A DNA stretch of 64,000 nt from NCBI GenBank assembly GCA_905221615.1, contig CAJNDT010004624.1, forward strand, positions 372,001-436,000. Direction: 5' to 3'. Of this stretch, positions 15,806 through 35,395 are shown in pieces. The first letter of the stretch is position 1. The number at the start of each line of letters is the position of its first letter. The position numbers and the translations under genes were made by a program. Source of the stretch: Symbiodinium sp. CCMP2592. Its lineage: Eukaryota > Sar > Dinophyceae > Suessiales > Symbiodiniaceae. The notes under the pieces are model-generated. The model was not told the origin of the DNA. It did no database searches and worked only from the letters and a program-made list of their open reading frames with translations.

Positions 15806-15808
<3 letters not shown>

Positions 15809-16173
15809 CCTCCCTAGCACATGGGAGCAGAGGGTCACTCCTACACTGTTTGCAATTTCGCTTTTCAACATAATCCGACATTGGACATTTACCAAATCAA
15901 CTGTTGCAGGGGGATCAGGCTTCCAGTGACTGACCTGATCCAACGAAGCTAGGTCACTGGAAGGGAAGTGATTGAGGACGCTCAGTCATGTACCTGCACA
16001 ATTTTCGGCAGCCCCCTGTGGTGCCAAGATTAGTCTGAGGACAGGCCCCCTGTGGTGTCCAGATTAGACAAACAATTTGTACGGTTGCCGCAATCTGACA
16101 AACAGTTGCAACATGAACAACATTCCTCTTTTTGTCCTTTGCACTCGTACTCTTGGCCGAATCCATCAGTGTG
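15806..16173 (+). repeat. Left terminal direct repeat (LTR-like)
   Basis: Identical to 35025-35395 except for a 3-bp indel near 16121. It contains a perfect 11-bp stem (CTTCCAGTGAC at 15920-15930 with GTCACTGGAAG at 15953-15963) and a tandemly repeated CCCCCTGTGGTG...AGATTAG block of about 37 bp at 16013-16070. It begins after (TG)n and ends CAGTGTG. Confidence 0.9.
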
Positions 16174-16496
16174 ATCAGCGTGGGTCGTTGAGACTCCAGA
16201 GCAACGGCTTTCCGTCATGGCGCCGTGGTGACCCTCCGGGGAGACCGGTGATGAACCGGGTGTTCAGCCTTCGTTCAGATCGTTCAGATTCTCCCGATGC
16301 TATTTTATCTCTCTCTCTCTGATGCTCGCATGTGCGTCTGACATGAGTGCAGGTGCAGTAATGGACGGCTAATGCAGTAAAGTGCGTCTAGTGAGCAGGT
16401 GCTACCTCGCTAGTCTGTCCTCTATTCGACCGCTTCTTTATTTCTCAGGGACTGCAAGGGCATGTGCAACTGACATGAGGGCAGGCGTGGTAACAT

Positions 16497-18656
16497 GTGT
16501 CTAACGCAAGTGAAGCAGCGCTTCCTCCGGGAAGTAATCGGCCTTCTTCTTTCTTTATCTCCGTCTTCGACATCTCAAGTCCGTCCAGCAGGGACAACCA
16601 GGACAGCCTGCACTTTGCTTGTGCAACTGTGTTTGTTTCACCAACTTCGTTGCAGCTATGTGGCCGGATAAATTTTACCACGCAGCCACCAGCAACACCA
16701 TACGCACCAACAACCCGACCGGTGCTCAATCAGTTTCACCCGAACACCTGGGTACCGCAGTCACAAGGATACCCAGCAATGATGCCAACTGGCATTGCTG
16801 CCACTCAGCAGCACACACTGCCGACGCAACCCACTTCGATCCCCGATGAGCAGACACACAGCTTCCCCATGATGCCATGTGGACACACTGCTCCTATACC
16901 ACAGCATCCGATGGTATACACACAACTCAGCACACCACAGCCCCAGATGCCACAACAACCTCCACCCCAGCAATTCATGTCGCAACATCCCCCCACTTTC
17001 TTGAACCCTGGTCCTTTGCCTACCCATACAACAGTTTTTCCCACGAGCCCATCACCTCTGACACCGCATCACTCCCAGCCTGCCACATACAACATTCCTT
17101 TCACACCACCTGCTTCACAACCCCAACCTGCACCTTGCAGCATCCCTTCCACACAACCCGCTCAACAATCCCATATACCGCCGCCAACGACCCTCCACCA
17201 AGCTTCACAATCTCACCCCACCAATGTTACCACTACCGATGCTGCACACATTGCCCCACAGACACCGGCAATCACCCCCCAACCCCAGCCAATAAGCACA
17301 GCCAACACACCCTCTGTCAGCACATTACCACCCACACAACCACCACCCGCTACGCGATCGGGAGACACTGACCCGCTCGCAGCACGTGCTTCTTCCCACC
17401 ATCCTCCGTTGCCACGCAGGAGACGGCACTCACCCACACGCAGCAGAACCCGCACCGTGAGCACTAGACGCCGACGACGCACACGCAGCAGAGCACGACC
17501 TGCCAGCAGCGGGAGACAGCACCGCCGACGCAGACACCACCGATCCCGCGACACCCGCAGAAGTCGTTCTCGCAGGAACACCAGACGATCTTCGTCGACA
17601 CCTCCGCGGACCTCGGTTGTGCTCCGCAGCTATTCTACAGTGCGTGATGTTGATACCAACAAGTGGCATTACAGAGCCACACAGCTACGTCAGAGGCCAC
17701 CCACCCCACCCAAGGTCCCACAAAGGACATTGGCCTCGCAGGTTCAACGAATCGCCCTCCGCATCAAGGGCAGCCAAGCAGCACAACAGCAGCCCCCAGC
17801 CGGACAGGGCACCTCCTCCCGCCAACAGGCTCAGCACAATCCCTCCAGCTCCGTTCGGACACCTGCCCCGACCTACGATGCATCAACAGCCGTTGCCCCA
17901 TCGGGTCAGCCAACCCTCGAACAACTGGGCAAACAGAGCAGACCACCACAGATTGATGTGGCGCCATTTTCTGAGCTTTACGAACATGAGAAGCCGACCC
18001 CTCACGCCGTCGACATGGAAGAAGCACACAAACTCGCCAAAACTTTGGGCGAGATAGCTGCTGACAGCGATTTCAGGCAGGAGACTTTAGCCGAATTTGC
18101 ACATGCAGTGCTACAATCAGGCACGCGATCAGCGTGCAACGAACTTGGGGCAGTGCTGACGCCAATATCGGACGGCGTGCATACTATGTTATTCATTCCT
18201 TGGGCTGGAGAGCAGCGCAGAGCGTTCGGCACCCGTGCCACTGACCCACCAGGAGAGACATACATCTACACCGCCGGACACGGCACGAGCATTGCAAGTG
18301 CCGCGCGCATTATGCGCGAGGACTTGGTCCGCCCAAGTTCAGTCAGACACTGCTTCGACGACAAGTCCTACCCACCCATTCCCTCTTGCGTCATATACGG
18401 GAATGCGACCCCAGGAGATGTATCGGAAAGCACGGTACATATAGTAACCGATCAATGTACACGGCGGCCGAAGGGCCAACAGGGAGTGATCGTCATCGGG
18501 ACAATACGGACTAAGTATCAGCATTACAAGATGACGTATCGGGACATGTATAGAGAGGCCTTCATCGTGGGGCGAAAGGGTGTTGTGCGGACCCCAGAGA
18601 AGTGGGGATTCCACTCGGGGCATTTCAGCATCGTTGGATTCGGCCTTATTCAGTGA
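16497..18656 (+). CDS. Pro-rich ORF with C-terminal HGTS domain, Penelope-like element
   Basis: The frame is open for 719 codons. No ATG stands at its start; the first in-frame ATG is at 16779, giving 625 residues. From about residue 55 to 300 it is Pro/Thr/Gln/His-rich, then Arg/Ser-rich (about 300-360, RRRRHSPTRSRTRT), suggesting nucleic-acid binding. The last 220 residues look globular: a helical part (EEAHKLAKTLGEIAADSDFR), then YIYTAGHGTSIASAARIMRE, YPPIPSCVIYG and EKWGFHSGHFSIVGFGLIQ. The HGTxxxxAxxI pattern resembles the first strand of ADP-ribosyltransferase-fold enzymes such as PARP or KptA, but the other catalytic residues cannot be assigned. Function unknown. Confidence 0.65.
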   Translation: MSNASEAALPPGSNRPSSFFISVFDISSPSSRDNQDSLHFACATVFVSPTSLQLCGRINFTTQPPATPYAPTTRPVLNQFHPNTWVPQSQGYPAMMPTGIAATQQHTLPTQPTSIPDEQTHSFPMMPCGHTAPIPQHPMVYTQLSTPQPQMPQQPPPQQFMSQHPPTFLNPGPLPTHTTVFPTSPSPLTPHHSQPATYNIPFTPPASQPQPAPCSIPSTQPAQQSHIPPPTTLHQASQSHPTNVTTTDAAHIAPQTPAITPQPQPISTANTPSVSTLPPTQPPPATRSGDTDPLAARASSHHPPLPRRRRHSPTRSRTRTVSTRRRRRTRSRARPASSGRQHRRRRHHRSRDTRRSRSRRNTRRSSSTPPRTSVVLRSYSTVRDVDTNKWHYRATQLRQRPPTPPKVPQRTLASQVQRIALRIKGSQAAQQQPPAGQGTSSRQQAQHNPSSSVRTPAPTYDASTAVAPSGQPTLEQLGKQSRPPQIDVAPFSELYEHEKPTPHAVDMEEAHKLAKTLGEIAADSDFRQETLAEFAHAVLQSGTRSACNELGAVLTPISDGVHTMLFIPWAGEQRRAFGTRATDPPGETYIYTAGHGTSIASAARIMREDLVRPSSVRHCFDDKSYPPIPSCVIYGNATPGDVSESTVHIVTDQCTRRPKGQQGVIVIGTIRTKYQHYKMTYRDMYREAFIVGRKGVVRTPEKWGFHSGHFSIVGFGLIQ

Positions 18657-18924
18657 TGTTCTGTATTACTTTCTTTCTTCTTCCGTTTCTACCTTTCACT
18701 CTCGAGTATCCTTTCTCTTCCAGGCCTGAATCCCGTTGCACATAGCTGTATGCAATCAAGCATTTGCTCCGACCCCGCTTTTGAGCCAAAGAAGAGACGA
18801 TGCAGCTGCATGCTGGATGCATTGCACAAGTAGATGCTGACACTCAAGCCAACTATGTTGTCCATGCACGTGCTATTTGCAGCTTTTGCAGTCACAGGCA
18901 ATTGTAGTGCCCCATTTTGCAACC

Positions 18925-20688
18925 ATGTACAAGCCGACACAGCCTCAGTGGCATACAACAATGCCAACAGGCATCATCGGCACAGCAATCAGTGCGGTGC
19001 AGCGACAAACAGCCTCAACCAGCAGCACCCCAATGCACCCGATTTCCCCACCACCAGGGATCCACAACATCCCACCCCACACCCCACCCATGACCCCAAC
19101 TACTTGGGGTTCAGCTCACCCTTACAGCCACAACACCACTTTCCCCCCTTTCCCTCCACCCCCTCCCCCACCCCAGCAGTTTACCGTCCCAGCTTCACCC
19201 ACCACACTGCCAACACCCACACCTGCCACTCCCCAACACACATTTGTGAGTCCATCTCCGATGACGACTCAAAACCCCAGCATTTCTTCACATACATTGC
19301 CTCAGGCCACCGTCACACCCCAACAACAACAACACACCAATCTCACGCCTGCAAATCCCCAGATACCAAACGACTTCGTTCAAACACCAGAGCATTGGGA
19401 CAACAGACAGCTTTACGGCCTCAACCTACCCAAACACATTCAATCTACACCACATTCAGTGCACAACCGCACGGCAGGCATGCCGATCGCAACAGCACCA
19501 TTGGTCGCATTTCTAAGACACAATTGGTCATCATACTGGCTACGTTACGCCGCACACGGCTTCGACATCCATCTCACATGCAGCAAACATATCAGCGAAG
19601 CCGTCTTTACCACTGAACTTATGGGTCAACTCCGAGCACGGAGAATTGATCTGGACCAAGCAGCCACCGCATTCTGCTGGCAAGAGAAGCTCACACTCGC
19701 AAAACGGCCAGCAATGTCACACCTCATCAAGGAATTGGTGTTATACCTGCAAGAGCTGCAGGACCAGTACAATGACGGCAACAAAAAGGACAAGCAAGAT
19801 GCCAAACCAGACACAGACAACACACAATCGCAACCCACCGAATCTCCAACACCACCACAATCCAGCAAATCACAACCTCATCTTCCACTTCAATCTTCGC
19901 AGCCGACAGAAGCAGACACTCTGGCTGCACACCGTATCAGTGACCTGGAAGCACGACTTTCAACAGCACTGGAGACAATCGAAGCTCTCCGTGCTCCGGA
20001 TGCAAACACTGAGGCACCCAGCACACCAGCACCAAAGAAACCAAAACGAGCCACAGCACCTAGCACTCCTATCAACACGCCCTCTCCACCACCTGACTCA
20101 ATTTCCACAATTGAGATTTCCCCCACCTCAACCACTCGTGGACAGAAACGAGCTACCATAGATGACGCTACACACAACGACACCAGACTTACCACTGGTA
20201 GCCTCTCCCCTTCCACAACAACAGTTGCAGAACAAGATACCAACGCGTTACATGCTTCCCCAGCATCGTCATCCACCACAGGTATGCATTTTCCGGGACG
20301 ATCCCTTCTGGGCGCCAAGCGACAGAAGCAGTCAACTCTCACACCAACGAAGGCGGCACCCCTCGATCCCAAGATGGATCCCCAGCGCATCTTTCAGCAG
20401 CCTACAAAAGCCAGTGTTTGGTTTCAGGATCATTTCACTGGTGTTCACTCTGAATCCGGCATCACCAGATGGTTTGGTGCCATCAAAGGCATCAGCGACA
20501 AACAAAAAACACAGGTAAAAAAGTACCTTGACATTGTTGCTTCGGAATTTCCTTCACTCAGCAACTCACAAGAACAGACACTGCAGACCGCTGCAGTCGC
20601 CTGGGGTGTCCCGCCCAAAGCCATCGACAAATTTGGCTCCCCAGCACTGATCAAACTTGTCGCTATCATCAGTCAGATGACAGAGTGA
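18925..20688 (+). CDS. Gag-like ORF1 of Penelope-like element
   Basis: 587 residues from the ATG at 18925. The N-terminus is Pro/Thr/Ser/Gln-rich and shares a MPTGI motif with the preceding ORF. A globular helical part follows (about residues 190-300 of the open frame: LVAFLRHNWSSYWLRYAAHG, QLRARRIDLDQAATAFCWQE). Next is a long low-complexity linker with a short coiled coil (RISDLEARLSTALETIEALR) and a basic KKPKRATAP stretch. The C-terminal 90 residues are again globular (VWFQDHFTGVHSESGITRWF, then QVKKYLDIVASEFPSLSNSQ). It ends at TGA (20686-20688), directly in frame with the RT ORF. The position suggests an RNA-binding structural protein; the family is not recognised. Confidence 0.65.
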   Translation: MYKPTQPQWHTTMPTGIIGTAISAVQRQTASTSSTPMHPISPPPGIHNIPPHTPPMTPTTWGSAHPYSHNTTFPPFPPPPPPPQQFTVPASPTTLPTPTPATPQHTFVSPSPMTTQNPSISSHTLPQATVTPQQQQHTNLTPANPQIPNDFVQTPEHWDNRQLYGLNLPKHIQSTPHSVHNRTAGMPIATAPLVAFLRHNWSSYWLRYAAHGFDIHLTCSKHISEAVFTTELMGQLRARRIDLDQAATAFCWQEKLTLAKRPAMSHLIKELVLYLQELQDQYNDGNKKDKQDAKPDTDNTQSQPTESPTPPQSSKSQPHLPLQSSQPTEADTLAAHRISDLEARLSTALETIEALRAPDANTEAPSTPAPKKPKRATAPSTPINTPSPPPDSISTIEISPTSTTRGQKRATIDDATHNDTRLTTGSLSPSTTTVAEQDTNALHASPASSSTTGMHFPGRSLLGAKRQKQSTLTPTKAAPLDPKMDPQRIFQQPTKASVWFQDHFTGVHSESGITRWFGAIKGISDKQKTQVKKYLDIVASEFPSLSNSQEQTLQTAAVAWGVPPKAIDKFGSPALIKLVAIISQMTE

Positions 20689-23466
20689 CTCAGGCAGTAC
20701 TTGATTCAACACCGGCAGACACTGGATCACACAACAATTTTCCGACAAAAGCAATTCAAGAACATCATACGCATTCTGGATCAAGGCAGATCCATCTTAC
20801 AATTTGTCGCACCATTGGCAGAACCAGTCTCTACACAATTCCACCAAATCATACTTTGGCTTCAAGGCCTGACCTTGTTACTTCGTACACAGCATTTCTA
20901 CCTCAAACATGAGGAAGGACATTTCTCCAACCTACAGAGACTATTAGCACATTCAAACATTTCTTTTCCATCGTACACACTCTCTTTCTTTCGTCAGCCA
21001 CAGGTGGTATATTGCAGAGTCACCACACAACAACCTTTTCGTGGCTACGTCTACATCGGCAGCACCAGTCACTCTCTCACACAACGAGAGGGCACACGCA
21101 ATCGAAAATTCAAGCAACTTCAACAACACAAGATTGTACAAGCCGAACTTGCCTTACGATGGTGGCTTAAACACAAATGCTACCACCAATACACACCAAT
21201 TGTACTACAAGCCAACATACCCACAGAGCAATTGGAAGCCACGGAGAACACTCTTATACAGCACCACCAATCCAAGCTCAACTTTCCCTACATTACATCA
21301 CACATGAAAGGAGCTTTCTCCGGCTTCACCAAAGCAGCCAACAACAAGCACAACGGCACAGCCACCTTATGGGCGAAGCAGCGCCGAGGCAAACTACACC
21401 ACTCCATTCGAAGCTTCAGCAATTCCCCCTTATTCAAAACCAGGAAACAGGCATGGACCACTGTCTCACATCTTACTTCCAACACTCGCACCAGATTCGA
21501 CACAACAAAACAACTGCTTTGCTCCGACACACCAGCAGCCACCGTTTATGCTTTACACAAACTCTCAAACAACTTACCACGACGCGACCGCAGACACGCT
21601 CACAAAGCTCTCAACACCGTTTTTAAGAAGCGGCGACTAAAACCACCTCCTATCACAAAACCCATTTACCTACAGCCACTCTTACACCCCACCTTCACCC
21701 AACACCTACGACAATATTTGCGCTCTCGTTTAACAAGCAACAAACAACACATTCCACCATTCCACCTACCCAGCACGAAACCGGTCTACAAGAAGCACCC
21801 ACCTATGCAACAACTCCTACACAATTGGCGCGATGCCCACACCACATGGCAACCTGATACACCACCACCCTGTACATGCTCACCATTACAGTCACAAGTA
21901 CCCCAGGAACACATTTTCCACAATCACATTGCTATCCAACTTGCAGAACTACAACCACAACACCAGTTTTTGGCATACTCCGGCAAAAGCAATTGCCTTC
22001 AGAAGCCCACACAGTTGGCGTCACAATTATGCCGAGCCATACGCACATGGCACCGACACTATGGACTACCTTACAACCATCAAACTGCAAAGCAGTTTGT
22101 ATCAGAACAAATACCACAACACAATTCACACTGCATTCAAAACAACATACTACAGGTCAAGATGATCAAGCAAGTCCAACACAAAATACCAACGGGCATC
22201 ATCCATTGCGAAGATCACTTCCCGAACCGACTCACGTGGTACTGCCCAGCACTATACCACACTGCCATACACAACACTTTTTTAGACAAAGAGATTTTTC
22301 GGATGTCGCAGCGCCAACCTCTACAACACCACTTCGATGTCTACACAGACATCCGCAGTCTTCTACCAGCATACACATGGGCGTTTCCACAGTGGGGACG
22401 CATCCCACGTGCCTACATTTTACCGAAAAGAAAGAAGCAATTCACAAAAGGACGTCCTATAGTGGCGTTCATCGACACCATGGGCAGGAAATTATGGGAA
22501 GCCTTAGCAGACGTACTGCAGCTGATGACCCTTCAAGCATGCCCAAACTCCTTTCACCAAGGAGACGGGATAACCCAGCTCAAACAAACAGCGCTCTTTT
22601 TGCATCAGCGCAGAAAACTACACGATTCAACAGATTACATCCTGTACAATCAGGATTTAGCTGGATTCTTTACTTCGGTCGATCAAAGCCGGTTTCTTTC
22701 AGCATACAGCATCATGGTTCGATGGTACAGAGAGAAGAATCCACTGCACTCTTCCAAATTCTTCATTGACCACTCACAGAAAGACCCCACACATCGAGTT
22801 CACAGAGGTAAAAGCAGACAAAAGCAGCAGGAAGCCTCCTCCGGCAACAAACTTTGCATACAATTACAACACATACCACAACTCATCATTGCAGTGCTCA
22901 GGCTCAACTATTTCACTGTCGGTACATCACTCATTGAGCAATTTCGTGGAGCACCTATGGGCTCGCCCTGCAGCCCAGCTTTATGCAACATCGTGGTTGC
23001 TGTAGAAGAGCAGTGTTGGCACCACACATACAAGCAACTTTTCACGAACCACAAGCATTTTCCAGACCACAACAAGCAGGATCAAGCTTACTTTTTTGCT
23101 ACCAGATACGTCGACAACCGCGTCCTTCTATTGCCTGCACAGCTGACCCGACTGCCTCCTTTTGCACAGCTTACTGACGCATCTTTCTACAAACCACCGG
23201 TTCAGCTTGAAACTGAACCGGCCAACATTTTCCTGGGTTTCGCCATAAACCCTCAGCACAGCAGCCTTACGCATCACTGCACTTTCCACAAGGCGGATAT
23301 TTTACACCCACAGTCGGCGACCTCTGTTGCAACACTTCGCAGCAGTTTTCAGGCCCGCACACGCATGGTACGCAGAGTGACAACACCATGCAGCGAGGCC
23401 ACATCAGCCATTCGAGCCATGCGCCATCTGTACATCGCTGCCGGCTATACTGATCAACAGCTGTAA
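20689..23466 (+). CDS. GIY-YIG endonuclease + Penelope-like reverse transcriptase
   Basis: The frame is open for 925 codons directly after the ORF1 TGA and in the same frame; there is no early ATG, so stop readthrough is likely. GIY-YIG motif at about residues 115-145: GYVYIGSTSHSLTQREGTRN with a later conserved Glu in EATENTLIQHH. RT domain: palm motif with Asp in YNQDLAGFFTSVD (about residue 655), EQFRGAPMGSPCSPALCN (about 750), and the catalytic RYVDN (about 805) in place of YxDD. GIY-YIG ahead of the RT is the permuted order described for Chlamys and Naiad Penelope-like elements, where the nuclease cuts target DNA and the RT primes from the nick. The C-terminus ends with AIRAMRHLYIAAGYTDQQL. 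Confidence 0.85.
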   Translation, partial: LRQYLIQHRQTLDHTTIFRQKQFKNIIRILDQGRSILQFVAPLAEPVSTQFHQIILWLQGLTLLLRTQHFYLKHEEGHFSNLQRLLAHSNISFPSYTLSFFRQPQVVYCRVTTQQPFRGYVYIGSTSHSLTQREGTRNRKFKQLQQHKIVQAELALRWWLKHKCYHQYTPIVLQANIPTEQLEATENTLIQHHQSKLNFPYITSHMKGAFSGFTKAANNKHNGTATLWAKQRRGKLHHSIRSFSNSPLFKTRKQAWTTVSHLTSNTRTRFDTTKQLLCSDTPAATVYALHKLSNNLPRRDRRHAHKALNTVFKKRRLKPPPITKPIYLQPLLHPTFTQHLRQYLRSRLTSNKQHIPPFHLPSTKPVYKKHPPMQQLLHNWRDAHTTWQPDTPPPCTCSPLQSQVPQEHIFHNHIAIQLAELQPQHQFLAYSGKSNCLQKPTQLASQLCRAIRTWHRHYGLPYNHQTAKQFVSEQIPQHNSHCIQNNILQVKMIKQVQHKIPTGIIHCEDHFPNRLTWYCPALYHTAIHNTFLDKEIFRMSQRQPLQHHFDVYTDIRSLLPAYTWAFPQWGRIPRAYILPKRKKQFTKGRPIVAFIDTMGRKLWEALADVLQLMTLQACPNSFHQGDGITQLKQTALFLHQRRKLHDSTDYILYNQDLAGFFTSVDQSRFLSAYSIMVRWYREKNPLHSSKFFIDHSQKDPTHRVHRGKSRQKQQEASSGNKLCIQLQHIPQLIIAVLRLNYFTVGTSLIEQFRGAPMGSPCSPALCNIVVAVEEQCWHHTYKQLFTNHKHFPDHNKQDQAYFFATRYVDNRVLLLPAQLTRLPPFAQLTDASFYKPPVQLETEPANIFLGFAINPQHSSLTHHCTFHKADILHPQSATSVATLRSSFQARTRMVRRVTTPCSEATSAIRAMRHLYIAAGYTDQQL

Positions 23467-23591: not shown

Positions 23592-24083
23592 ATGCATAAA
23601 AGTGCCATGACTGGCAGATTGCAGCCGAGCCACAAAGCGCTGAGCGGCCGTCCTCGGCCATCCATCTCCAAGCATAGCAGACGCCGCAACGAGCAGCCTG
23701 CGGTTGGCAGCCACACTCAACAGCCGGCGCCTTTACGCTCTCAGTTCCTACGTGTCGCAGAAGACGAAGATTTCCAAGATTACCAAGAGCAACACCAAGA
23801 TCCGCAAGAACAGCAGGACGCAGCAGTGGCTGCACCGGCGACTCCGCCATTTCCACCTCCGCCGCATTCTGGTCCGGATTCATCGGCTGAGATTATTGAG
23901 TTACTAACACAGTTTCACAATTCGTTGCTTGAATCCAATGCCAAGCTGGAACGCTTGATACAGCAGGCCACAACGGTGTTGACTACTCAACACGAAGCCA
24001 CCACTGCCATTATGGCATCATGCAAACAGCAACTTGATATTCTCGAGAGCCTTATGAGGCAAAACACACCAGACTGGTCCTGA
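23592..24083 (+). CDS. Accessory coiled-coil ORF (163 aa)
   Basis: ATG at 23592. The N-terminal 45 residues are basic, followed by a Gln/Asp-rich stretch (DYQEQHQDPQEQQD), a Pro-rich hinge, and a C-terminal heptad-like helix (EIIELLTQFHNSLLESNAKL) of about 60 residues. It probably oligomerises. It lies 125 bp after the RT stop and shares the A+C-rich composition of the element. No known family recognised. Confidence 0.45.
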   Translation: MHKSAMTGRLQPSHKALSGRPRPSISKHSRRRNEQPAVGSHTQQPAPLRSQFLRVAEDEDFQDYQEQHQDPQEQQDAAVAAPATPPFPPPPHSGPDSSAEIIELLTQFHNSLLESNAKLERLIQQATTVLTTQHEATTAIMASCKQQLDILESLMRQNTPDWS

Positions 24084-24233: not shown

Positions 24234-24494
24234 ATGAGCGAAGCATCTTTTCCGACAAACACAGCGACTACAGCTTCGCCACCCATCGATGAGGCACGAC
24301 GTGAAGCTCTCTCCGAGGCCATCATGGAGATTTTGACACAGCATCGGGACTATGATTCAGAAACTGGAAGCGAACCTTCCACATTCAGTGACGGGGCTCT
24401 ACGCGACCAATTAGCCGAGTTTATTCTTCAAACAACTCGGCAGATCACAGAGCTAAAGCAACGAGTGGAACGACTCGAAGCTTCGCAACAATAG
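24234..24494 (+). CDS. Accessory coiled-coil ORF (86 aa)
   Basis: ATG at 24234. The product is acidic and helical, with a leucine-heptad C-terminus (DQLAEFILQTTRQITELKQR, then VERLEASQQ). A TATA-like TATAAAAAGAG lies upstream at 24104-24114, and a pyrimidine tract with CTTGCAG (24155-24161) could be a splice or trans-splice acceptor. It resembles the 110-residue first ORF of the nested element in being a small coiled coil. Function unknown. Confidence 0.45.
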   Translation: MSEASFPTNTATTASPPIDEARREALSEAIMEILTQHRDYDSETGSEPSTFSDGALRDQLAEFILQTTRQITELKQRVERLEASQQ

Positions 24495-25934: not shown

Positions 25935-25965
25935 TTTTGACCTTTGCTGACTTTTCAATTGGGAT

Positions 25966-27772
25966 ATGGCGGGTCAGCCTAACTCAGACGCTTTGCTTGG
26001 GCCATCCGAATTTCATGCGGCCTTGGTCGCTGCCGAGAGGCCGCTTGTTCTGGATGCTCAGTCTCTTCTCATCAAGGACTTGTCTTGGCACATAAAGGTG
26101 GGCGAGGCGTCTCGAAAGACTCCTCTTCTCCCCTGGGAGACGGGTCCCCTTTCTTGGATCTTTGGTAGGCCACTCAAGAGGCCGCGTCTGGAGCTACCTC
26201 GGGACCTGTCCCCCGATTCAGGATCTGCTGTTGATGCGGGGGTGCCTCTGGTGCATCCACAGCCGGTGCCCAACTTTGCAAGGGAGCGTCTTAGGATTGC
26301 AGCTCTCCTGGCTACAGACGACAGTTCTCGCTGGGAAGCTCTGAGGAAGTTCAGGACGCTGGTTTTGCTTGACCCGGCGCTGTCTCAGGTGGGGCAGTCA
26401 CTTGCGGCTGAGGCTTTGATTCTGCGAGACGGCGATCAGATGAGGCGAACTTTCTTGGATGTCTTCCATGGCAAGAGTACAGCTACCTTAGTGAAGAGAG
26501 CCTCGTCGCTTTGGAGGTTTGCCAACTTTTGTTTTGACAATGGTCTGGGAAATCCGCTCGGGGCTGGCGAGAAGGTTCTGTACCGATACATGTCGCACCT
26601 CGAGGAACATGGCAAGCCGACATCCGCCTCGGCTTTCCTTCAGGCCTGGAACTTCGCTGTCCACACTTTGAAGCTCTGTAGCCCGGACGCTTTGGGGGCC
26701 TTGTCTGCTAGAGTGAAGGGTGCTGCGCAGCGCATGTACTCCTTGAAGAGGAAGCTTGTTCAGGCAGTACCTTTGACAGTGAAGCAGGTGAAAGGCCTGG
26801 AGTACGTGGTCCTGAAGTCCCCGTACCCCCATTGGCGAATCATTGCGGGTCACCTCTTGATGTGCATAGGGTCTAGCTGCCGATTCGCCGATTCCTTGCA
26901 GCTGACCAGCCTCAAGGTCAGCACTGCTCAGGGTGTTACCCTGGTTGAGGCAGAGAGCTCGAAGTGGAAGACGGCTTCGAGGAAGGACCAGCTCCTTCCT
27001 TTGGCCTCCTTGGGAAAGTTCTTCGCTGAGGAGTCGTGGGGAGAAGTTTGGGCTAAGGAGCGCGAGGCTGCTGGTCTTGGCCTCGGCCCGGCGCTCCCGG
27101 CTTTCTCCGAGGTGACTGGTGAGTGGCTTAACCGTCCTATGTCCACGGGGGAGGCCACTTGTTATCTTAGGGAGTTCATGACCGCGGCTTCCCAGATGAC
27201 TGCTGGTTTAGGGTGTCATTCTCTGAAGTGCACTGTCTTGTCTTGGGCTGCAAAATCCACGGATGTCCCTCTCGCTGATCGACGTTTGCTGGGGCATCAC
27301 AGATCCGGGAGTGGTGTCGCCGCTTACTTATGCGAGGGACGAGCAGACCCGACTCATGAAGGTAGTTCATCTCGTGGTGGAAAAGATCAGGAAAGGAGCC
27401 TTCAAGCCGGATGCCTCGAAGGTCTGGCGCCTCGCGAAGCTGATTGAGTCTGGTGGCACGGAGCTGCTTATTGAACAGACTGTGCAAGGCGATCCCTCTA
27501 TGGAGGAGTCCGATGACGAGGAAGGCGACTTCGGCGACGGGGACATGGCCGCTGGAGGAGCGTGCGCCTCGATGGAGCGATTGAGTGCAGCTGAGCTGGA
27601 CATTGCTAAAGATAGTCGGATGCATGTCTACTCGAGGGTGGTGCACATCCTGAAAGGATCCAAGTTCCTATGTGGGAGGAACCTCTCTCCAAACTATGAG
27701 GCCATCGATCCGGATGTTCCCCTCCGAGACTTGCCGGTATGCGCTCAGTGCTCGCAGAAGTACCAGCAGTGA
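25966..27772 (+). CDS. Tyrosine recombinase, frameshifted near the catalytic Tyr
   Basis: ATG at 25966. The main frame (to 27447) contains a DIRS-type tyrosine recombinase: helical N-terminal domain; box I arginine in HLLMCIGSSCRFADSLQL (about residues 295-312); a lysine-rich loop (SSKWKTASRKDQLLPL); then GCHSLKCTVLSWAAKS and LLGHHRSG (about 415-445). At about 27300-27330 the natural reading moves to the +1 frame (SPLTYARDEQTRLMKVVHLV, then KIRKGAFKPDASKVWRL), which runs on to 27772 and ends with a C-x-x-C motif, LPVCAQCSQKYQQ. The tyrosine in LTYARDE is the likely nucleophile. The enzyme inserts the circular DNA copy. The shift could be a disabling indel or a recoding site. Confidence 0.85.
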
Positions 27773-27832
27773 TTTTGGGATCGAGGGGTGAGTTCTGTGT
27801 CAGAGTCCGAAATTTTGTCGTGTGTTCCTGGG

Positions 27833-28103
27833 CCTGACCTGGCGGAGCCCCAATTGGGCGTTGACCGCTGGGCGTTGAGGGCGCAAGAGCAGGAGCAAAC
27901 TCGCCAGACAATTCGAGCCTCACCTTTGCCAGACCTGGCGGAGTCCCCCTACTGGGGGCGTTGGCCGTTGGGCGTCGAGGGCGTAAAGGGTGGAGGCGAG
28001 TCGCTATGACTCCTCAGATGATTTGAGCCTCACCTTATCCTGACCTAACGGAGACCCCACGTCGGGGCGTTGTCCGTTGGGCGTCGAGGGCGTAAGGTCG
28101 TGG
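27833..28103. repeat. Three tandem ~90-bp GC-rich units before gag
   Basis: CCTGACCTGGCGGAG...GGGCGTTG...GGGCGTTGAGGGCG recurs at 27833-27893, 27927-27993 and 28036-28103. Each unit has a variable palindromic centre, for example CCCCCTACTGGGGG. It forms the leader between the recombinase and gag. It may hold a promoter, packaging or hairpin signal; function is inference. Sequence 28104-28320 shows nothing more. Confidence 0.7.
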
Positions 28104-28322
28104 GGCGCTCTTCACTTTGGGCATTCCGTGGCCTCACCACAGTAACAGTGTGACCTTGTCTCGCGCGAAAGGAATTTTGACTGCAGGCGCGAGTGGGGCA
28201 GGCAGTCCTACGGGCGTTGTGCCGAGCTCTTGGTGGTTCTGATTCTCTGAGCTGCATCCAAAGTTGCCTTGCTGACGACAGTCCTGACTTGTTGGCTAGA
28301 GCGAGGAAGAGCGCAGTTCAGG

Positions 28323-28339
28323 CCGTCCTTGAAGGACGG
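28323..28339 (+). promoter_or_regulatory. Hairpin before gag ATG
   Basis: CCGTCCTT-G-AAGGACGG forms a perfect 8-bp inverted repeat 13 bases before the gag ATG at 28353. It could influence initiation; role unknown. Confidence 0.35.
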
Positions 28340-28352
28340 GACAGTAGCAGCC

Positions 28353-29535
28353 ATGAATTCGACAATTGACAGCGAAGCCACGTTCGCTGCCCGGGCCACC
28401 GAGCTCGGCATGGAGCGCGCTCTCTTGGATTTGCTTGTGAACAACAACGTGAAGACGATGGGCGCGCTAGCCTTTGTGAGCCCCTATCAAATCGGTCAAG
28501 CAGACGAGAAACCTCTTCTTGAAGCCCTCAAAGCCCTGATAGGGCGCGACTTGACCGCGAAGGAGCTGATCCCAGTCAGGCGATTGTGGTTCGAAGCCTC
28601 GACCACAGTGATGGGGGAGTTGAAGCAGAAAGTAGAAAGAAATGACTCTGCTGAACCAGTTCGTCTAGCCATAGCGGAAAGAACAACACGTCTGGATGAG
28701 CAGAAAAAGCGCCTTGTGGGCGTGTGCATCAACAGTGAGTCTGAACCTTCTCACCGCCTTGTGGATGTTGTCTTCCAGCAGGGCGCGGATCAGCAGCTGA
28801 CGTGGTTGCCTTGGGAGAAGTTGACAAGTCGGGCTCATGAGTTGACGCATTCTCGCTCCGACAACGCCATCCTGTTTGATGCTCAGGGCAACATGAGGCT
28901 GACTAAGAAGATGCAGGAGAGCCAGTGTACTCTGACAGGCGAGCTCCAAGCTCGACAAGCGCTTCAGAGGCGCGCGTTGGCGTATGACCTCGCCCGCTTG
29001 TGTGACTATGCTGTCATGGAAACCTACCATGAGGAGTTGTTCCAGCTCCTCACTCGGCCTCCACCTCCCAATGCCCTCTACGTCTCAATGGGCCAAATCC
29101 GAGAAGCTGATAAGCACTTATTCATCAGGATCGCAGAGCAAACCCGGGGCTCTCTCACTGCTCGCCCGGATGGTGCTAAGCCTTGCAACAGCAGCTCGAG
29201 CTTCTCAAGAACCATCCTCAGGTGCAGTTCTTCTTGATGCCACCGCAGAAGCCTCTCCGCTACTCTCCTTATGATGGCAAAGGGGAGGGCAAGAAGGGAG
29301 CTGGAGGCAAGGGAAAAGGGAAAGCATCGACCGGTGCTCCCGCAGGAGGGGCTGCGCAAGTGGACCTCCCATCTGGATGCAGTGCCAAACACAATGGCAA
29401 GCCAATATGCTTTGCGTACAACAGGGCGGGCTGTAAGTTTGCCAAGGATGGCAAGCGGTGCAGACGAGGTTTCCATATATTTGGAAGTGTTTCAAGGAGC
29501 ACAGCTATAGCGCTTGCCCGCTCGGCGGGGCCTGA
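28353..29535 (+). CDS. Gag of DIRS-type element, read in three frames
   Basis: ATG at 28353 (MNSTIDSEATF). The first frame runs to about 29175 through a helical protein (RATELGMERALLDLLVNNNV, EALKALIGRDLTAKELIPVR). Sequence sense then moves back one base to QQQLELLKNHPQVQFFLMPP, followed by a Gly/Lys linker and a CCCH zinc motif CFAYNRAGCKFAKDGKRC...H (about 29409-29475). It moves back one base again at about 29478 to WKCFKEHSYSACPLGGA and stops at TGA 29533-29535. Pol continues in that last frame. Two -1 shifts in a young element are odd: sequencing-type indels, a decayed copy, or recoding. The role is the nucleocapsid-like RNA-binding protein. Confidence 0.7.
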
Positions 29536-32500
29536 CTCGGTGGTGACACTTCTGAGGCTTCGGTGCATGACGCTGCTCCCCGTCTTCAGGCGACGGCCCT
29601 TCTCGACCTTTTCGAGTCGCTGCCTAATGAGGTTGCGCCTCGCCCTGGATCGACTTCTTCAACGAAGGTGTTTCAAGCTGGGGCCTACATTTTCGGTGTG
29701 CTGGCCGGTCTACGCCGGTCTTGCGCCTTGCATGCTGAGAGTATCAAACCCTTTTGCCGTTTTGTAGTGGAAAACACTCCTGAGGAGTTTGTTTTCAGTA
29801 ACATTGCTGTCTTTGCGAACTTACGGACTGAGATGCACCTAGATCCTAATAATCTGGAGGGCACTTTGAACTTTGCCATTGCCCTGTCTTCCTTCGAAAG
29901 CGGACAGATTCGACTTGAAGGCGGGCCGCAGGGTTCTGAGGCCCTTTTGGATGTCAAGCCAGGCGTCTTCTTTGATGCCCGGACTCGACGCCACGGGACC
30001 TGTGACTGGACAGGTCAGCGGGTCGTTCTTGTGGCATTCAGCCTCAGGGGCTCCGATCGCCTTTCTGCAAGGGACGCCCAGACCCTAGCATCCCTAGGGT
30101 TTAGGCCCCCTTACCCGGGTGTAAATAATCTGCATTTGGCAAGCCAGCTTTCAACGTCAGATGCGCCGGCGCATGTCGCTGCAGCTTCGCCCGGCTTTCC
30201 TCCTGTGCCTCCGAATGCTCCTGCCTTTGTTGAGGTGTTCGCTGGCTGTGCTCGCTTGTCAGCTACGTTCGCCCGGGTTGGTTTCAAGGTCATGCCCTTT
30301 GATGGCCCTCGGAACCCGCATCAGCCTGAGCATCCTGTGTGCACGCTTGACCTGACATTGCCGATTTGCCAACAGATCTTCTTGAGCCGCCTCGAGAATT
30401 CCAGTGTCTTCTTGATTCACTTTGGGTTGCCTTGTGGCACAGGATCGCGTGCCCGCGAGGCGCCACTTCCCCAACATCTGCGAGCCCGTGGTGCTCCTCA
30501 GCCTCGCCCGCTACGAGACCATGTGCACGTCTTGGGCCTCCCTTCCTTGAGTCCTCAGGAGTCTGCTAGAGTGGAGGCCGCCAACCGACTGGCCGAGTTC
30601 GTGGTGCAAGTGCTTGTGCGAGCACATGATCAAGGCTGGCGCATTGTCATTGAGAACCCCATTCGTTCTTGGATGTGGAGTGTTCTAGCCCACTTTGTGC
30701 GCGCGCTTGACAAGCCTCGCTTTCGGTCATGGTACTCCGAGCTGTTCACTTTTGATTTTGATCAATGCTGCTGGGGCGGTCGCCGTCGCAAAACTTCCAG
30801 GTTCTTGACCAATGTGCCCGAGCTTCGCTCCTTGGTGGCTTCTTGTCAAAATGATCACCCTCACGAGCCGTACCGCATCTTCAGAGGTGCGGCCTCTTCT
30901 TGGAAATTCGACACGGCTTCCGAGGCCGAGTATCCTTTGCCTTTGTGCGAACAGTACGTTCGCCTCCTGTGCCCGCTGGTCAATGCCCAGCCGCCAAACC
31001 TGCCTAGGCCTTTGGTTCGTCAGGTTCATCGGAAGCCTCCTCTCGTGCCTGAGTACAAATCCTTCACAAATGTCCGCCCTGAAAGTGGTGAGTTTCGCGA
31101 GCTCGCGTCAGATCGGGGTGTTGGCGGGAGCGGCTCAACTCAGGGCTCCACGTTTGGAGTCTTTCACTCTAAGGGTGAGTTCCTTGAGAAGGCGCTGGAA
31201 GTTGAGCACCCCTTTGATTCCGCCTTTGCCATTGACGATCAGACCAAAAGGAACGTCTTCGAGTTGCTCACCATGGGTCTCCTGGGCCCTGCTCGCAGGC
31301 GGATGGACACTCAGAAAAAGCTTTCAGCGTTGAAGCGTGAGCTTGCCGTCGAGGAGAAGCGTTTTCACGCCTCCCTTCCGGAGCACGCCCAAAAGGTGCT
31401 CAAGGGGAAGAACATCTTGTTGTGGAAGAAGCTCCTTGAGGAGACCGGGTTCCCAGACATCACGGTCGCTGAGCTCATGGAGGGCGTCCCACTGGTCGGT
31501 AGGCCTAGTAAGTCTTCCTTGTATGGGTGGAAGGAGCAGCCGGCGACCACAACGTTGGATGATCTTCTTGTTTCCTCCGTGTGGAGGAACCCTGCGCTGG
31601 CGGCGAAGGGCAGAGTTGGGGACGACCCCGTCCTAGCCGAGAAAATCTGGCAGGCTACACTTTCGGAGGTGGAGAGGGGCTTCATCTCGGGGCCCTACGA
31701 TTCGGAAGAGGACGTTAAGAAGGCCCTTGGAGTTTCTCACATCTGCTGCAGCCGGCGCTTTGGGGTGAAGCAAGGTGCAGGCGATGCTTTGAAGTATCGC
31801 CCCATCGACGACTTCAAGGAGAGTGCCATAAATTCTGCCTACCACGCGGTGGATCGCTTGCAGCTGCATGACGTCGACTACTTTGTTTCCTTGATAAGGT
31901 TTCTGGCGAACTCCGTGGACGACTCGGGTGCAGTCAATGTCGAGCTGTCCGACGGGACAGTGCTGAGTGGGGCTGTGCACAGTGACTTTCGATCGGGGCG
32001 GCGCTGGCTTGGACGGTGTCTCGATCTGGAAAAGGCGTATAAGCAGGTTCCCATATTGGCCGCTCACTTGCCCCTAGCCGTCATAATGGTATGGGACCCG
32101 AACACCAGCCGCAACAGATATTTTACCACTTGGAGCATGCCGTTCGGCGCATGCGCGGCCGTGTTTGGATTTAATCGCATATCCAGGTCGCTCTTACATC
32201 TGGCCTCGCACCTTTGCGCCGTCATAGGAGGCGTGTATTTTGATGATTATCCTATGATCGAGCCTGCTGAGTCTTCTAGGATGTGCAGCCTCTCGGTGGA
32301 AACCCTGCTTGACTCCTTGGGATGGTCTTATGCCGTCGGTGACGACAAGGGTCAGCCTTTTGAGGAAACCTTCAACCTCCTTGGCATGCGGCTGGGCGTT
32401 TCTAGAATCATGGATGACATCCTCGAGCTCGAGAACAAGCCCAGCCGGGTCCAGAAGCTCGTTGAGGCAGCCAGGAGAATGGCTGCGAGTGGGGCTGTGA

Positions 32501-33279
32501 GCAAGAGTGACTCTGCATCCCTTCATGGCCAACTGAACTTCATGGTGGGCTTCGCTTCCGGCCGTTCCTTGAAATTTGCTGCGCGAGCCTTGTCAAACCT
32601 TTATCACTTTCCACGGGATCAGCCTGACGAGGAGGTGAAGTCCTTGGGCCGCTACCTTGAGTCTGCGCTTTTGAGCTTGGAGCCCAAGGTCATCAGGCTG
32701 AGGTCAGGCGGGAGGCCGGTGTCAGTCTTCAGCGACGCCTCTTACGAAGATGGCGTGGCGGCATGGGGCATTGTCTTGGCAGACCCTGTCTCTGGTGAGA
32801 GGCTGGTAGCTGGCGGGATTGTAGATGATCACCTTGTGCAGTTTTGGCTTGATGAAGGAGTTGAACAAGTCATTTCACAGGCCGAGGCCTTTGCTTTGGT
32901 TCTGGCAAGGAGAGCTTTCAAGGACCACCTGCAGTGCCGCAGATGCGTGTTCTATGTCGACAATGATGCGGCGCGCTATGTATGCATTAAGGCGAGCAGT
33001 CCGAGCCGAACCCTCCTCTCCTTGGCCTGCTCCTTTTACGCCAGTGAGTCTCATGACGGAGTCATTTCATGGCTGGAGCGTGTTCCTTCTGCGAGCAATA
33101 TCGCTGATCTCCCTAGCAGGGGAGAATGCGCTGAGGCGGCAAAGCTGATAGGAGGCAAGATTGTCGACTGCAGTCAGATTGCATCGGACCTGACTTCGGA
33201 AATTTTGTCCGTGGATGATCTTCCGTGGAGCCTTCTCGCTACGTCCTACAAGGACAAAGCACCTCCGATCTTCTTGTGA
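29536..33279 (+). CDS. DIRS-type pol: 2OG-dioxygenase-like, C5-MTase-like, RT, RNase H
   Basis: Open for 1,247 codons after the gag TGA, in the same frame and with no early ATG. Residue numbers count from 29563. Domain 1: HLDPNN (HxD, about 91) and RRHGTCDWTGQRVVLVAF (about 145), a pattern of 2OG-Fe(II) dioxygenases. Domain 2: VEVFAGCARLSATFARVGF (about 222, SAM motif I), FGLPCGTGSRARE (about 287, Pro-Cys like motif IV of C5-methyltransferases), RIVIENP (about 360) and CCWGGRRRKTSRFLTN. Domain 3, RT: CLDLEKAYKQV, WSMPFGACAAVFGF, YFDDYP (about 892). Domain 4, RNase H: SVFSDASYEDG (about 1053), SQAEAFALVLA, FYVDNDAARYV. RT and RNase H copy the element; the first two domains could alter its DNA methylation, which is inference. 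Confidence 0.85.
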   Translation, partial: LGGDTSEASVHDAAPRLQATALLDLFESLPNEVAPRPGSTSSTKVFQAGAYIFGVLAGLRRSCALHAESIKPFCRFVVENTPEEFVFSNIAVFANLRTEMHLDPNNLEGTLNFAIALSSFESGQIRLEGGPQGSEALLDVKPGVFFDARTRRHGTCDWTGQRVVLVAFSLRGSDRLSARDAQTLASLGFRPPYPGVNNLHLASQLSTSDAPAHVAAASPGFPPVPPNAPAFVEVFAGCARLSATFARVGFKVMPFDGPRNPHQPEHPVCTLDLTLPICQQIFLSRLENSSVFLIHFGLPCGTGSRAREAPLPQHLRARGAPQPRPLRDHVHVLGLPSLSPQESARVEAANRLAEFVVQVLVRAHDQGWRIVIENPIRSWMWSVLAHFVRALDKPRFRSWYSELFTFDFDQCCWGGRRRKTSRFLTNVPELRSLVASCQNDHPHEPYRIFRGAASSWKFDTASEAEYPLPLCEQYVRLLCPLVNAQPPNLPRPLVRQVHRKPPLVPEYKSFTNVRPESGEFRELASDRGVGGSGSTQGSTFGVFHSKGEFLEKALEVEHPFDSAFAIDDQTKRNVFELLTMGLLGPARRRMDTQKKLSALKRELAVEEKRFHASLPEHAQKVLKGKNILLWKKLLEETGFPDITVAELMEGVPLVGRPSKSSLYGWKEQPATTTLDDLLVSSVWRNPALAAKGRVGDDPVLAEKIWQATLSEVERGFISGPYDSEEDVKKALGVSHICCSRRFGVKQGAGDALKYRPIDDFKESAINSAYHAVDRLQLHDVDYFVSLIRFLANSVDDSGAVNVELSDGTVLSGAVHSDFRSGRRWLGRCLDLEKAYKQVPILAAHLPLAVIMVWDPNTSRNRYFTTWSMPFGACAAVFGFNRISRSLLHLASHLCAVIGGVYFDDYPMIEPAESSRMCSLSVETLLDSLGWSYAVGDDKGQPFEETFNLLGMRLGVSRIMDDILELENKPSRVQKLVEAARRMAASGAVSKSDSASLHGQLNFMVGFASGRSLKFAARALSNLYHFPRDQPDEEVKSLGRYLESALLSLEPKVIRLRSGGRPVSVFSDASYEDGVAAWGIVLADPVSGERLVAGGIVDDHLVQFWLDEGVEQVISQAEAFALVLARRAFKDHLQCRRCVFYVDNDAARYVCIKASSPSRTLLSLACSFYASESHDGVISWLERVPSASNIADLPSRGECAEAAKLIGGKIVDCSQIASDLTSEILSVDDLPWSLLATSYKDKAPPIFL

Positions 33280-33299
33280 CTGCATTCGGACGTCTGCTG

Positions 33300-33540
33300 G
33301 GGAATGACGGGTCCGTTGAAGGAAACAGGTTCGCCTGTGTTATCCTTGGATCGTCGGTGGTGCACATGTTTCTCCCCTTGATCTGATCGCAGTCCGAAGG
33401 TGCCAAAATAGCGAAGGTGTCCGAGTGATTGCAAGTGAAGCTTCAATATTTGAAGATTGCTTTTTTTATAACATATTGATTGATTGGGCTATGCCCGAAT
33501 ATATGATTGTTTTTAACCACGTTTCGTAAATCACTAAGAC
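33300..33540 (+). repeat. Split direct repeat B1 (241 bp)
   Basis: Begins GGGAATGACGGG and ends CACTAAGAC. It is almost identical to B2 (33818-34058), with compensating one-base differences in two T-runs. It abuts A2 without a gap. Confidence 0.93.
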
Positions 33541-33802
33541 GACGTTCTCCGCGGGCGGACAGAGTTGTCTTTGATTTATAGTCGCCCATAGAGGCGACGC
33601 GAAACGTAGGAATTTCAAATTTTACAACTTATTTAAAATCCGTGCGCTCTTGATTTCATGTCACACTTTTACTTTGACGTGGAATCAGTTGTTCGAGTGC
33701 AAAAGCCTTTGGCCTAAGTTCAGTGTGTCCGTAGGTCACGTGTCAGCACATGCACATAGCTGGGAAACACATTGCAATGACCGTTGACTGAACAATTTTT
33801 CT
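33541..33802 (+). repeat. Split direct repeat A2 (262 bp)
   Basis: Full-length copy of A1. It is followed by a 15-bp C-rich spacer (33803-33817, CCCGCCCACCCGCCC) and then B2. Confidence 0.93.
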
Positions 33803-33817
33803 CCCGCCCACCCGCCC

Positions 33818-34058
33818 GGGAATGACGGGTCCGTTGAAGGAAACAGGTTCGCCTGTGTTATCCTTGGATCGTCGGTGGTGCACATGTTTCTCCCCTTGAT
33901 CTGATCGCAGTCCGAAGGTGCCAAAATAGCGAAGGTGTCCGAGTGATTGCAAGTGAAGCTTCAATATTTGAAGATTGCTTTTTTTTATAACATATTGATT
34001 GATTGGGCTATGCCCGAATATATGATTGTTTTAACCACGTTTCGTAAATCACTAAGAC
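33818..34058 (+). repeat. Split direct repeat B2 (241 bp), right end of nested element
   Basis: Copy of B1. It ends with GAC at 34056-34058, after which A+C-rich Penelope-like element sequence resumes. Confidence 0.93.
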
Positions 34059-34379
34059 AAAACAGTCAAGAAAACAAAGAAAACACGCAACATCTCACCA
34101 CCATCCCAATCCACAACACAGCAACGACGCCAACATCCACATACTACAAGACGAAAGAGGACACGCTCTTCGCATTCAACATCATCAGCGTCACCTACGG
34201 CAACGTCACACATGGCTGAGGACCACACCGGTCTCCATCTCGAGATCCTTGGTCTTCTGACTCGATTGCACCTTACGATATTGTGCATCCTACTATTCAG
34301 CACAAGCGGTCCAAAACCGCTTGTGCAAAAATGCTGGTACGTGCAGGATTCAGGTGTCGCTGCCATTTCAAGATCATGA
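34059..34379 (+). pseudogene. 3' half of accessory ORF split by the nested element
   Basis: In the frame continuing from 25356-25358, this segment stays open for 106 codons to a TGA at 34377-34379. It encodes a Thr/Ser/Arg/Lys-rich part and then a hydrophobic segment (LGLLTRLHLTILCILLF) that could be a membrane or amphipathic helix. That it is open in the predicted frame supports the empty-site reconstruction. Confidence 0.65.
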
Positions 34380-34579
34380 GTGACTGTCCCAACAGACTCG
34401 CTGTTGGACCCTAATTCTCAGGACGGATTAGGGCTGCAAGATCCGCTAAGCGTGACAAAAAAGCCTGCGCATGCGAGTGTCAGGACGACACCGCTTTGTT
34501 GTTTTGCCAGAGCACACATCATGTCCATGTTGATTTGCATTCCTTGTTCAAGCTTTTGTCGGTTGGTAGCAGCAAAAAT

Positions 34580-34930
34580 ATGACAAAGCGAAAGGCTGCC
34601 GAGGCCGGCCTTCCATGGTACTCCATGGCAGGACAATGTTTTCGGATGACTGTTGAAATTCCACCCGACCGCATCACCAGAGACAAGCACATGTTCTTAC
34701 ACGTGGTGCTTTGTCTGGGCGACAACGTTCTCCAAGCACGCAAGATCTTCTCCTACCGCATCAAGGAGATCACCGGCAGAACTCCTAAAATCCCAGCTTT
34801 CTTCTTCGAACAAAACCGACGACGACTACATGATTGGGATTCAGTCACCACATTAGCCACGTTGATGCCGGTGCTTTTTGTTAGAACCTGTTCGGATCAG
34901 GAAATACGACAATCACCCGATCGCTATTGA
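34580..34930 (+). CDS. Last accessory ORF of Penelope-like element (116 aa)
   Basis: ATG at 34580 (MTKRKAAEAGLPWYSMAGQ); the frame is open upstream to 34496. The sequence is well mixed and looks globular: FRMTVEIPPDRITRDKHMFL, VLQARKIFSYRIKEITGRTP, FFEQNRRRLHDWDSV. It ends 94 bp before the right terminal repeat. No family recognised. The basic N-terminus suggests nucleic-acid binding. Confidence 0.45.
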   Translation: MTKRKAAEAGLPWYSMAGQCFRMTVEIPPDRITRDKHMFLHVVLCLGDNVLQARKIFSYRIKEITGRTPKIPAFFFEQNRRRLHDWDSVTTLATLMPVLFVRTCSDQEIRQSPDRY

Positions 34931-35024
34931 CAGCGAGAAAAGTGCGCCATTCACTCCTATTGCCGCGCATCAGACCTTTCACTCTACTTGAAGCATGTAC
35001 GCCCCATTGGGGCTGTGTGTGTGT

Positions 35025-35395
35025 GAACCTCCCTAGCACATGGGAGCAGAGGGTCACTCCTACACTGTTTGCAATTTCGCTTTTCAACATAATCCGACAT
35101 TGGACATTTACCAAATCAACTGTTGCAGGGGGATCAGGCTTCCAGTGACTGACCTGATCCAACGAAGCTAGGTCACTGGAAGGGAAGTGATTGAGGACGC
35201 TCAGTCATGTACCTGCACAATTTTCGGCAGCCCCCTGTGGTGCCAAGATTAGTCTGAGGACAGGCCCCCTGTGGTGTCCAGATTAGACAAACAATTTGTA
35301 CGGTTGCCGCAATCTGACAAACAGTTGCAACATGAACAAACACATTCCTCTTTTTGTCCTTTGCACTCGTACTCTTGGCCGAATCCATCAGTGTG
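35025..35395 (+). repeat. Right terminal direct repeat (LTR-like)
   Basis: Copy of 15806-16173 with one 3-bp insertion (AAACAC versus AAC context near 35340). It contains the same 11-bp stem at 35139-35149/35172-35182. It is preceded by a short (GT)5 and followed by (GT)n GGTGGTGTG at 35396-35430. Confidence 0.9.

Follow-up and report, generated by a model that had tools for sequence, protein, structure and literature searches.

Extent and dispersal of the element

The window C4623:372001-436000, the whole 64-kb stretch of DNA analysed here, raises the question of whether a block lying between two direct repeats is one retroelement of exceptional size or a composite, the original prediction having been a giant multi-gene Penelope-like element (PLE) set in a (GT)n tract. 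The block is probably a 10.9-kb PLE with several open reading frames (ORFs) and an endonuclease (EN) domain, permuted in that its GIY-YIG domain is N-terminal, which was later hit by an 8.7-kb element of the DIRS/Ngaro type (Table 1). The predicted pair of 370-bp direct repeats is present, one copy measuring 370 bp and the other 373 bp with a single 3-bp indel as their only difference, and both borders do lie in (GT)n: (TG/CG) tracts of at least eight units occur in the window only at 15692-15721, 15775-15806 and 35392-35413.

The 373-bp repeat was used to search the genome (1.098 Gb in 5383 contigs), and all counts of repeat copies given here rest on the 40 of 699 first-look candidates that were scored. 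The search yielded 40 full-length matches and two partial ones; by contig, strand and spacing, the full-length matches form 14 same-strand pairs (28 matches), leaving 12 for which no partner is listed. The spacing is 10.39-10.52 kb in ten pairs, 19.2 kb in that of the window, and 19.3-23.0 kb in three others. The ten copies that were fetched have a body collinear with that of the window at approximately 94-99.6% identity, and in all ten paired copies window base 25358 joins the sequence that follows the insert, with a spacing too short to accommodate it (checked base by base in L045 and L053). The site is also empty in C5011, where the repeats are 19,276 bp apart; thus, the segment 25359-34058 is a later insertion. 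Pieces from C198 and C2902 have no match to the window and are therefore uninformative about this site.

The 10.9-kb element is dispersed in the genome, and the view that the accessory ORFs travel with the reverse transcriptase (RT) is supported: each of the 10 paired copies has the whole body together with the RT. Wide occurrence of the repeat on its own as a satellite was not seen within the 40 scored candidates, one of the classified copies (L028) being a solo repeat and 12 of the 40 matches having no listed partner. C5011 was considered as a second composite copy and rejected, since nothing occupies its insertion site and the other fetched piece has no match to the window; this copy exceeds a plain one by 8.8 kb and contains DNA unmatched in the window (L060, C5011:501500-502700). 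A short non-autonomous derivative (L059:47 to approximately 1735, from C2646:646446 on) has the same terminal repeats and the same hairpin and (TG)6 described below, abuts a full copy head-to-tail, and contains no ORF of 140 amino acids on its own strand.

Reverse transcriptase and endonuclease-like domain

ORF3 begins with a stretch that contains a GIY-YIG-like domain (residues 106-206 approximately), followed by a TERT-like region and the RT (residues 369-925) with the catalytic box RYVDNR, so that the predicted combination of a GIY-YIG-like motif and RT does exist within one ORF of the + strand (20689-23463). The predicted structure of the RT resembles telomerase above all else, ranks 1-14 of the Foldseek search and ranks 1-16 of the VIA search all being telomerase, which places the modelled RT in the class that is sister to telomerase and supports the Penelope-like identity proposed for it. 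The sequence of ORF3 gave a single match against PDB (E 0.92), and a profile search gave none. In an alignment of the RT region of the 10.9-kb element's own family, consisting of ORF3 and 28 of the 44 RT-region matches (29 rows, also used for a tree; P0001-P0003 omitted), the catalytic box with its D-N pair is present in 29 of 29 sequences.

The signature residues of GIY-YIG are invariant in the five domains that were picked for comparison; three of the five have Pfam GIY-YIG matches, all below the cut-off, and unrelated families score better in two. With its EN-like domain located N-terminal to the RT, ORF3 has the domain order of the permuted PLEs Chlamys and Naiad, and the element also has the pseudo-LTR (pLTR; LTR, long terminal repeat) arrangement of PLEs. 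An LTR retrotransposon is not indicated despite the concerted evolution of the end repeats, as the RT is TERT-like and a Pfam search of ORF1-ORF3 gave neither an integrase nor an RNase H match. Individual copies contain frameshifts and stop codons, and 6 of the 11 have an unbroken ORF3.

Insertion sites, terminal repeats and a model of replication

Insertion in (GT)n is supported by the 5' junctions, 17 of 17 of which (two of these loci having identical flanks), together with that of one solo repeat, directly abut (TG/CG) tracts, which vary in length from 8 to 142 units. The 40 bp beyond the 5' tract are TG-rich (TG/GT making up at least 0.45 of the steps) in 11 of the 17 but not in the other six. 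On the 3' side, the expectation that the flanks are always (GT)n holds in part: a TG-rich continuation is found at 11 of 17 junctions and not at six, at one of these because another element abuts; the 3' side of the solo repeat is not TG-rich either. Four of the 5' tracts consist of exactly 13 pure TG units, which, together with the flanks of the C4701 copy (see below), suggests that the element itself may supply some of the TG tract.

Immediately before the 3' repeat, a hairpin of the GCCCC/GGGGC type with a variable loop and exactly six TG units (one set including a CG) occur in 8 of 8 distinct contexts, among them the non-autonomous derivative L059 and a diverged neighbour (L015). No Rfam family matches the window at the gathering score, and thus no hammerhead ribozyme was found there; at a relaxed threshold, positions 34950-35450 have no ribozyme match and only two chance matches to unrelated families. 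The repeat folds no better than shuffled sequences (z -0.64).

Within a copy, the terminal repeats evolve in concert, like LTRs. Over 13 of the 14 pairs (C2902 omitted), the mean divergence is 1.15 changes within a copy versus 8.1 between copies. Across 22 informative columns, the repeats of a copy agree with each other in 281 of 286 cells, a result reached by 0 of 10,000 shuffles of partners, which take no account of subfamily relatedness; five columns in which a variant private to a single copy is present in both its repeats lead to the same conclusion. In 16 columns, variants are found in one repeat only. Such concerted repeats require either that one repeat serves as template for both ends in each cycle or that conversion is pervasive; with an RNA carrying both repeats as template, the 5' and 3' lineages would stay apart.

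The favoured model is target-primed reverse transcription (TPRT) in (GT)n, with internal initiation and a single template jump guided by (UG)n. The GIY-YIG enzyme would nick the (CA)n strand, and the freed CACA end would prime reverse transcription at the internal GUGUG that closes the 5' repeat at its boundary with the body, near the start position of the anole PLE, which has been shown to initiate internally, a little way into its ORF (PMC11167929). Once the cDNA had reached the 5' end of the RNA, its (CA) tail would pair anew with the hairpin-(UG)n of the RNA 3' end; after this jump, body and repeat would be copied a second time. The product would be (GT)n-repeat-body-(TG)6-repeat-(GT)n, an RNA with one repeat thus giving rise to an insertion with two identical ones, and failed jumps would leave solo repeats. 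Initiation at the boundary followed by the (UG)n jump would explain why the 3' end is fixed, why there are three GT junctions and why the repeats are identical; it would also explain the solo repeat and perhaps the additional TG at C4701.

Several points weigh against this account and against the description of the element at large. The anole start, according to the part of PMC11167929 drawn on here, is not homologous to its target, unlike the start proposed above; neither outer flank of the C4701 copy is TG-rich, making it a doubtful case for insertion in GT; and the short ORFs (ORF4b, the 5' part of ORF5a, and ORF5b) are the weak part of the coding case.

Ranking just below the jump model, and nearly as good, is a circular RNA template, or a tandem (multimeric) one, in which each unit has a single repeat: reverse transcription of the same PLE would go round once and copy the repeat again, without a jump. 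This is a real if somewhat less than even possibility: it likewise predicts concerted repeats, and it would make the constant junction of hairpin and (TG)6 a feature encoded by the template. PLEs have been described as tandem or partially tandem, and an mRNA comprising several copies has been proposed (PMC11167929, in part); in this genome, the shorter derivative follows one copy head-to-tail (L056/L059), and the diverged relative L015 lies just upstream of the C1935 copy. However, the spacing of the ten copies fetched is that of single units rather than of long arrays, and the Rfam searches described above found no hammerhead ribozyme by which circles might form. Ordinary TPRT of a two-repeat RNA, with the repeats kept alike by gene conversion after insertion, needs no special step, and direct repeats 10 kb apart could plausibly undergo conversion; we consider it unlikely, as the agreement of 281 of 286 cells across subfamilies would demand conversion in nearly every lineage while the 16 one-repeat-only columns stayed unconverted.

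Accessory open reading frames and the in-frame TGA

ORF1, ORF2, ORF3 and ORF4 are under purifying selection. The ratio of replacement to silent substitution (dN/dS) was computed for these from six copy pairs, and for ORF4b, the 5' part of ORF5a, and ORF5b from seven; the test for an excess of changes at third codon positions compared the window with the ten fetched copies. In the C4701 copy, part of ORF1 reads N, with the loss of 231 bases. The values for ORF3 are 0.06-0.09 (third-position p=2e-32). In ORF1, the C-terminal domain (dN/dS 0.03-0.06, one pair being without changes; p=3e-13) is more constrained than the N-terminal part (0.26-0.66; p=8e-6), and the open stretch from 16494 to the first ATG contains frame-breaking indels in other copies. 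A relative of the C-terminal domain is known from another source (P0004, 57% identity); an assignment of the domain to a known enzyme was tried and abandoned, there being no notable match in Pfam, NCBIfam or PDB (with P0004 also searched) and the predicted structure being unusable. Coding evidence extends to the 3' part of ORF5a (p=1e-3, nine sites), whereas third-position excess is absent from ORF5b and from two control stretches (p=0.32 and 0.27). The TAA between ORF5a and ORF5b, a second in-frame stop, is present in 11 of 11 copies.

ORF2 (dN/dS 0.18-0.31; p=3e-8) is followed in the same frame by ORF3, and in 11 of 11 copies the two are separated by just one TGA. The 205 codons that precede the first ATG of ORF3 contain the GIY-YIG-like domain and have 3 to 20 silent changes as opposed to 0 to 3 that replace an amino acid (dN/dS 0-0.05 across the six pairs), and AlphaFold2 predicts most of the stretch after the TGA as helices with fair confidence. 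The simplest reading of this arrangement is readthrough of the TGA, by which the gag-like ORF2 and the EN-RT of ORF3 would be produced from one frame; the alternatives are a hidden intron and a start at a codon other than ATG.

Rotifer PLEs capture host DNA between their pLTRs (PMC3846280, in part), as in Adineta Pen1/Pen3a, so that ORF1, ORF2 and ORF4 might be hitch-hikers of this kind rather than working parts. Identical content in 10 of 10 paired copies, kept by purifying selection, and the presence of a relative of the ORF1 domain in another source make this improbable. Weakest of all, and next to impossible, is the reading of the block as one giant 19.6-kb PLE, which can appeal to the position of all the long ORFs concerned on one strand between both repeats but is contradicted by the lack of 25359-34058 in 11 of 11 other copies checked and by the split direct repeats and base composition peculiar to that segment. 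The claim of at least five further ORFs on the same strand has to be amended accordingly: other long ORFs of the + strand are present, but 25951-27444, 28251-29234 and 29536-33276 belong to the nested element. The A+C-rich composition ascribed to the block is strongest over ORF1-ORF4 (a fraction of 0.62 in 16494-24080, and 0.54-0.56 in the rest of the body); the fraction is 0.46 in the nested part and 0.45-0.48 in two flank stretches.

Nested element and other features of the window

The nested element has split direct repeats (A1, 25356-25620; A2, 33538-33802; B1, 33300-33467; B2, 33818-33985) in the order A-coding-B-A-B, which is typical of DIRS/Ngaro elements. Its Pol contains a Tet_JBP-like segment, then motifs that by eye are methyltransferase-like, and then an RT. 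The match to the Tet_JBP 2OG-dioxygenase family (29596-30198, + strand) has an E-value of 1.8e-4 for the piece, covers profile positions 62-161 of 164, and is below the cut-off. Judging from these sequence resemblances, the two domains may form a pair that modifies bases, housed within a retroelement, which is of interest given the abundance of 5-hydroxymethyluracil in the DNA of dinoflagellates. SymbioDIRS-Dnmt3 of Symbiodinium likewise has A-coding-B-A-B repeats, together with a separate recombinase ORF (putative in the nested element) and a methyltransferase-like part in Pol (PMC5890265, in part); the nested element differs from it by the additional weak Tet_JBP-like domain, 'TET' having 0 occurrences in the main text of that paper. 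The host genome is algal and probably that of a dinoflagellate, a reading that draws in part on this resemblance to SymbioDIRS; the spliced-leader marker has 0 matches in the window.

Elsewhere in the window, a Copia-like element on the + strand (3766-10895) has two overlapping ORFs with matches to a zinc knuckle (1e-7) and RVT_2 (3.5e-21). G/T-rich and C/A-rich low-complexity arrays (36801-37069 and 37700-38001) form long inverted-repeat arms approximately 0.7-1 kb apart; about 1.5 kb of imperfect (GCT)n (38698-40249) has several open frames on both strands; and a tandem array at 40825-41726 has a unit of 271-288 bp with 95-97% matches.

Table 1. The 10.9-kb element, its target flanks and the nested element, in window coordinates.
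Feature	Position	Strand	Remarks
(GT)n-rich tract, 5' target flank	15629..15806	+	16 TG units directly at junction
5' terminal repeat (pLTR)	15804..16173	+	370 bp; ends CATCAGTGTG, continues into body ATCAGCGTGG
ORF1	16779..18656	+	open from 16494, first ATG 16779; Pro/Arg-rich N-terminal part, conserved C-terminal domain at about 17973-18653
ORF2	18841..20688	+	first ATG 18925; Pro/Gln-rich; gag-like position; TGA 20686-20688
ORF3	20689..23466	+	same frame as ORF2 past TGA; first ATG 21304 (codon 206)
ORF4	23592..24083	+	163 amino acids; dN/dS 0.06-0.13; third-position p=8e-9
ORF4b	24234..24494	+	86 amino acids; weaker evidence; third-position p=9e-4; dN/dS 0.03-0.47
ORF5a, first part	25191..25358	+	weak coding evidence; interrupted by nested element; 5' part dN/dS 0.13-1.22
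Nested DIRS/Ngaro-like element	25359..34058	+	8700 bp; flanked by GAC on either side, with one GAC in empty sites
Nested putative tyrosine recombinase ORF	25951..27447	+	resemblance by eye; no Pfam match
Nested ORF	28251..29234	+	
Nested Pol ORF	29536..33279	+	weak Tet_JBP and weak RVT_1 matches; methyltransferase-like motifs by eye
ORF5a, remainder	34059..34414	+	TAA 34412-34414; 1-bp deletion near 34224 relative to 10/10 copies, hence frameshift in window copy
ORF5b	34415..34930	+	coding uncertain; in frame past TAA; third-position p=0.17; dN/dS 0-1.16
3' hairpin GCCCC-ATT-GGGGC, then (TG)6	35001..35025	+	junction of body and 3' repeat
3' terminal repeat (pLTR)	35023..35395	+	373 bp
(GT)n-rich 3' target flank	35391..35431	+	

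Comparison with known Penelope-like elements

Among the papers listed by literature searches, judged by titles and the beginnings of abstracts, no dinoflagellate PLE was recognised, and 'Penelope' has 0 occurrences in a review of dinoflagellate genomics (PMC11453091). PLEs of the Chlamys group are present in the brown alga Ectocarpus, in a 2025 paper which states that none had been reported in TSAR before (PMC12477816); these families are likewise algal and outside the green lineage, and the part of that paper used here describes no multi-ORF structure for them.

PLEs have been reviewed as elements of 4-6 kb with one ORF, or with two and no EN, the terminons of rotifers being the exception (PMC6431247, in part). 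The 10.9-kb element resembles the canonical Penelope/Poseidon PLEs in its TERT-related RT, GIY-YIG domain, pLTRs and proposed internal initiation (PMC11167929 and PMC3846280, in part), but differs from them in that they have a C-terminal EN in a single ORF of a 4-6 kb element (PMC6431247), and the anole element has a hammerhead. Like the terminons, it is a PLE with multiple ORFs whose 3' structure exposes a simple repeat for pairing with the target; but the terminons, which reach up to 40 kb, are EN-deficient, reside on telomeric repeats and have a hammerhead ribozyme (PMC6431247, in part), whereas the 10.9-kb element has an EN signature, lies in interstitial (GT)n, and has no ribozyme that the searches above could find.

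A dispersed PLE that combines an EN with several genes and LTR-like ends broadens the known range of telomerase-related retroelements, and if the host is a dinoflagellate, it extends PLEs to the alveolates. It offers a natural test of the formation of pseudo-LTRs, an unsettled step of PLE replication, and with so many near-identical copies, sequence reads by themselves would suffice to test the transposition model. Tentatively, this may be a retroelement of the telomerase class that has converged on the organisation of an LTR retrotransposon or retrovirus, the first system of this kind described in an alveolate: a gag-like ORF is followed by an in-frame UGA and pol, accessory genes are present, and in each cycle (UG)n-guided strand transfer would restore both terminal repeats from one, combined with targeting of GT microsatellites. 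The nearest relatives in domain order would be the Chlamys and Naiad PLEs, reportedly described by Craig et al. in 2021 in Molecular Biology and Evolution (MBE), which are said to have an N-terminal GIY-YIG before a TERT-like RT and, in Chlamys, to target (CA)n; compared with them, the present element would be distinguished by its 10.9 kb, its at least four conserved ORFs, its ORF2-TGA-ORF3 arrangement, and its LTR-like concerted ends.

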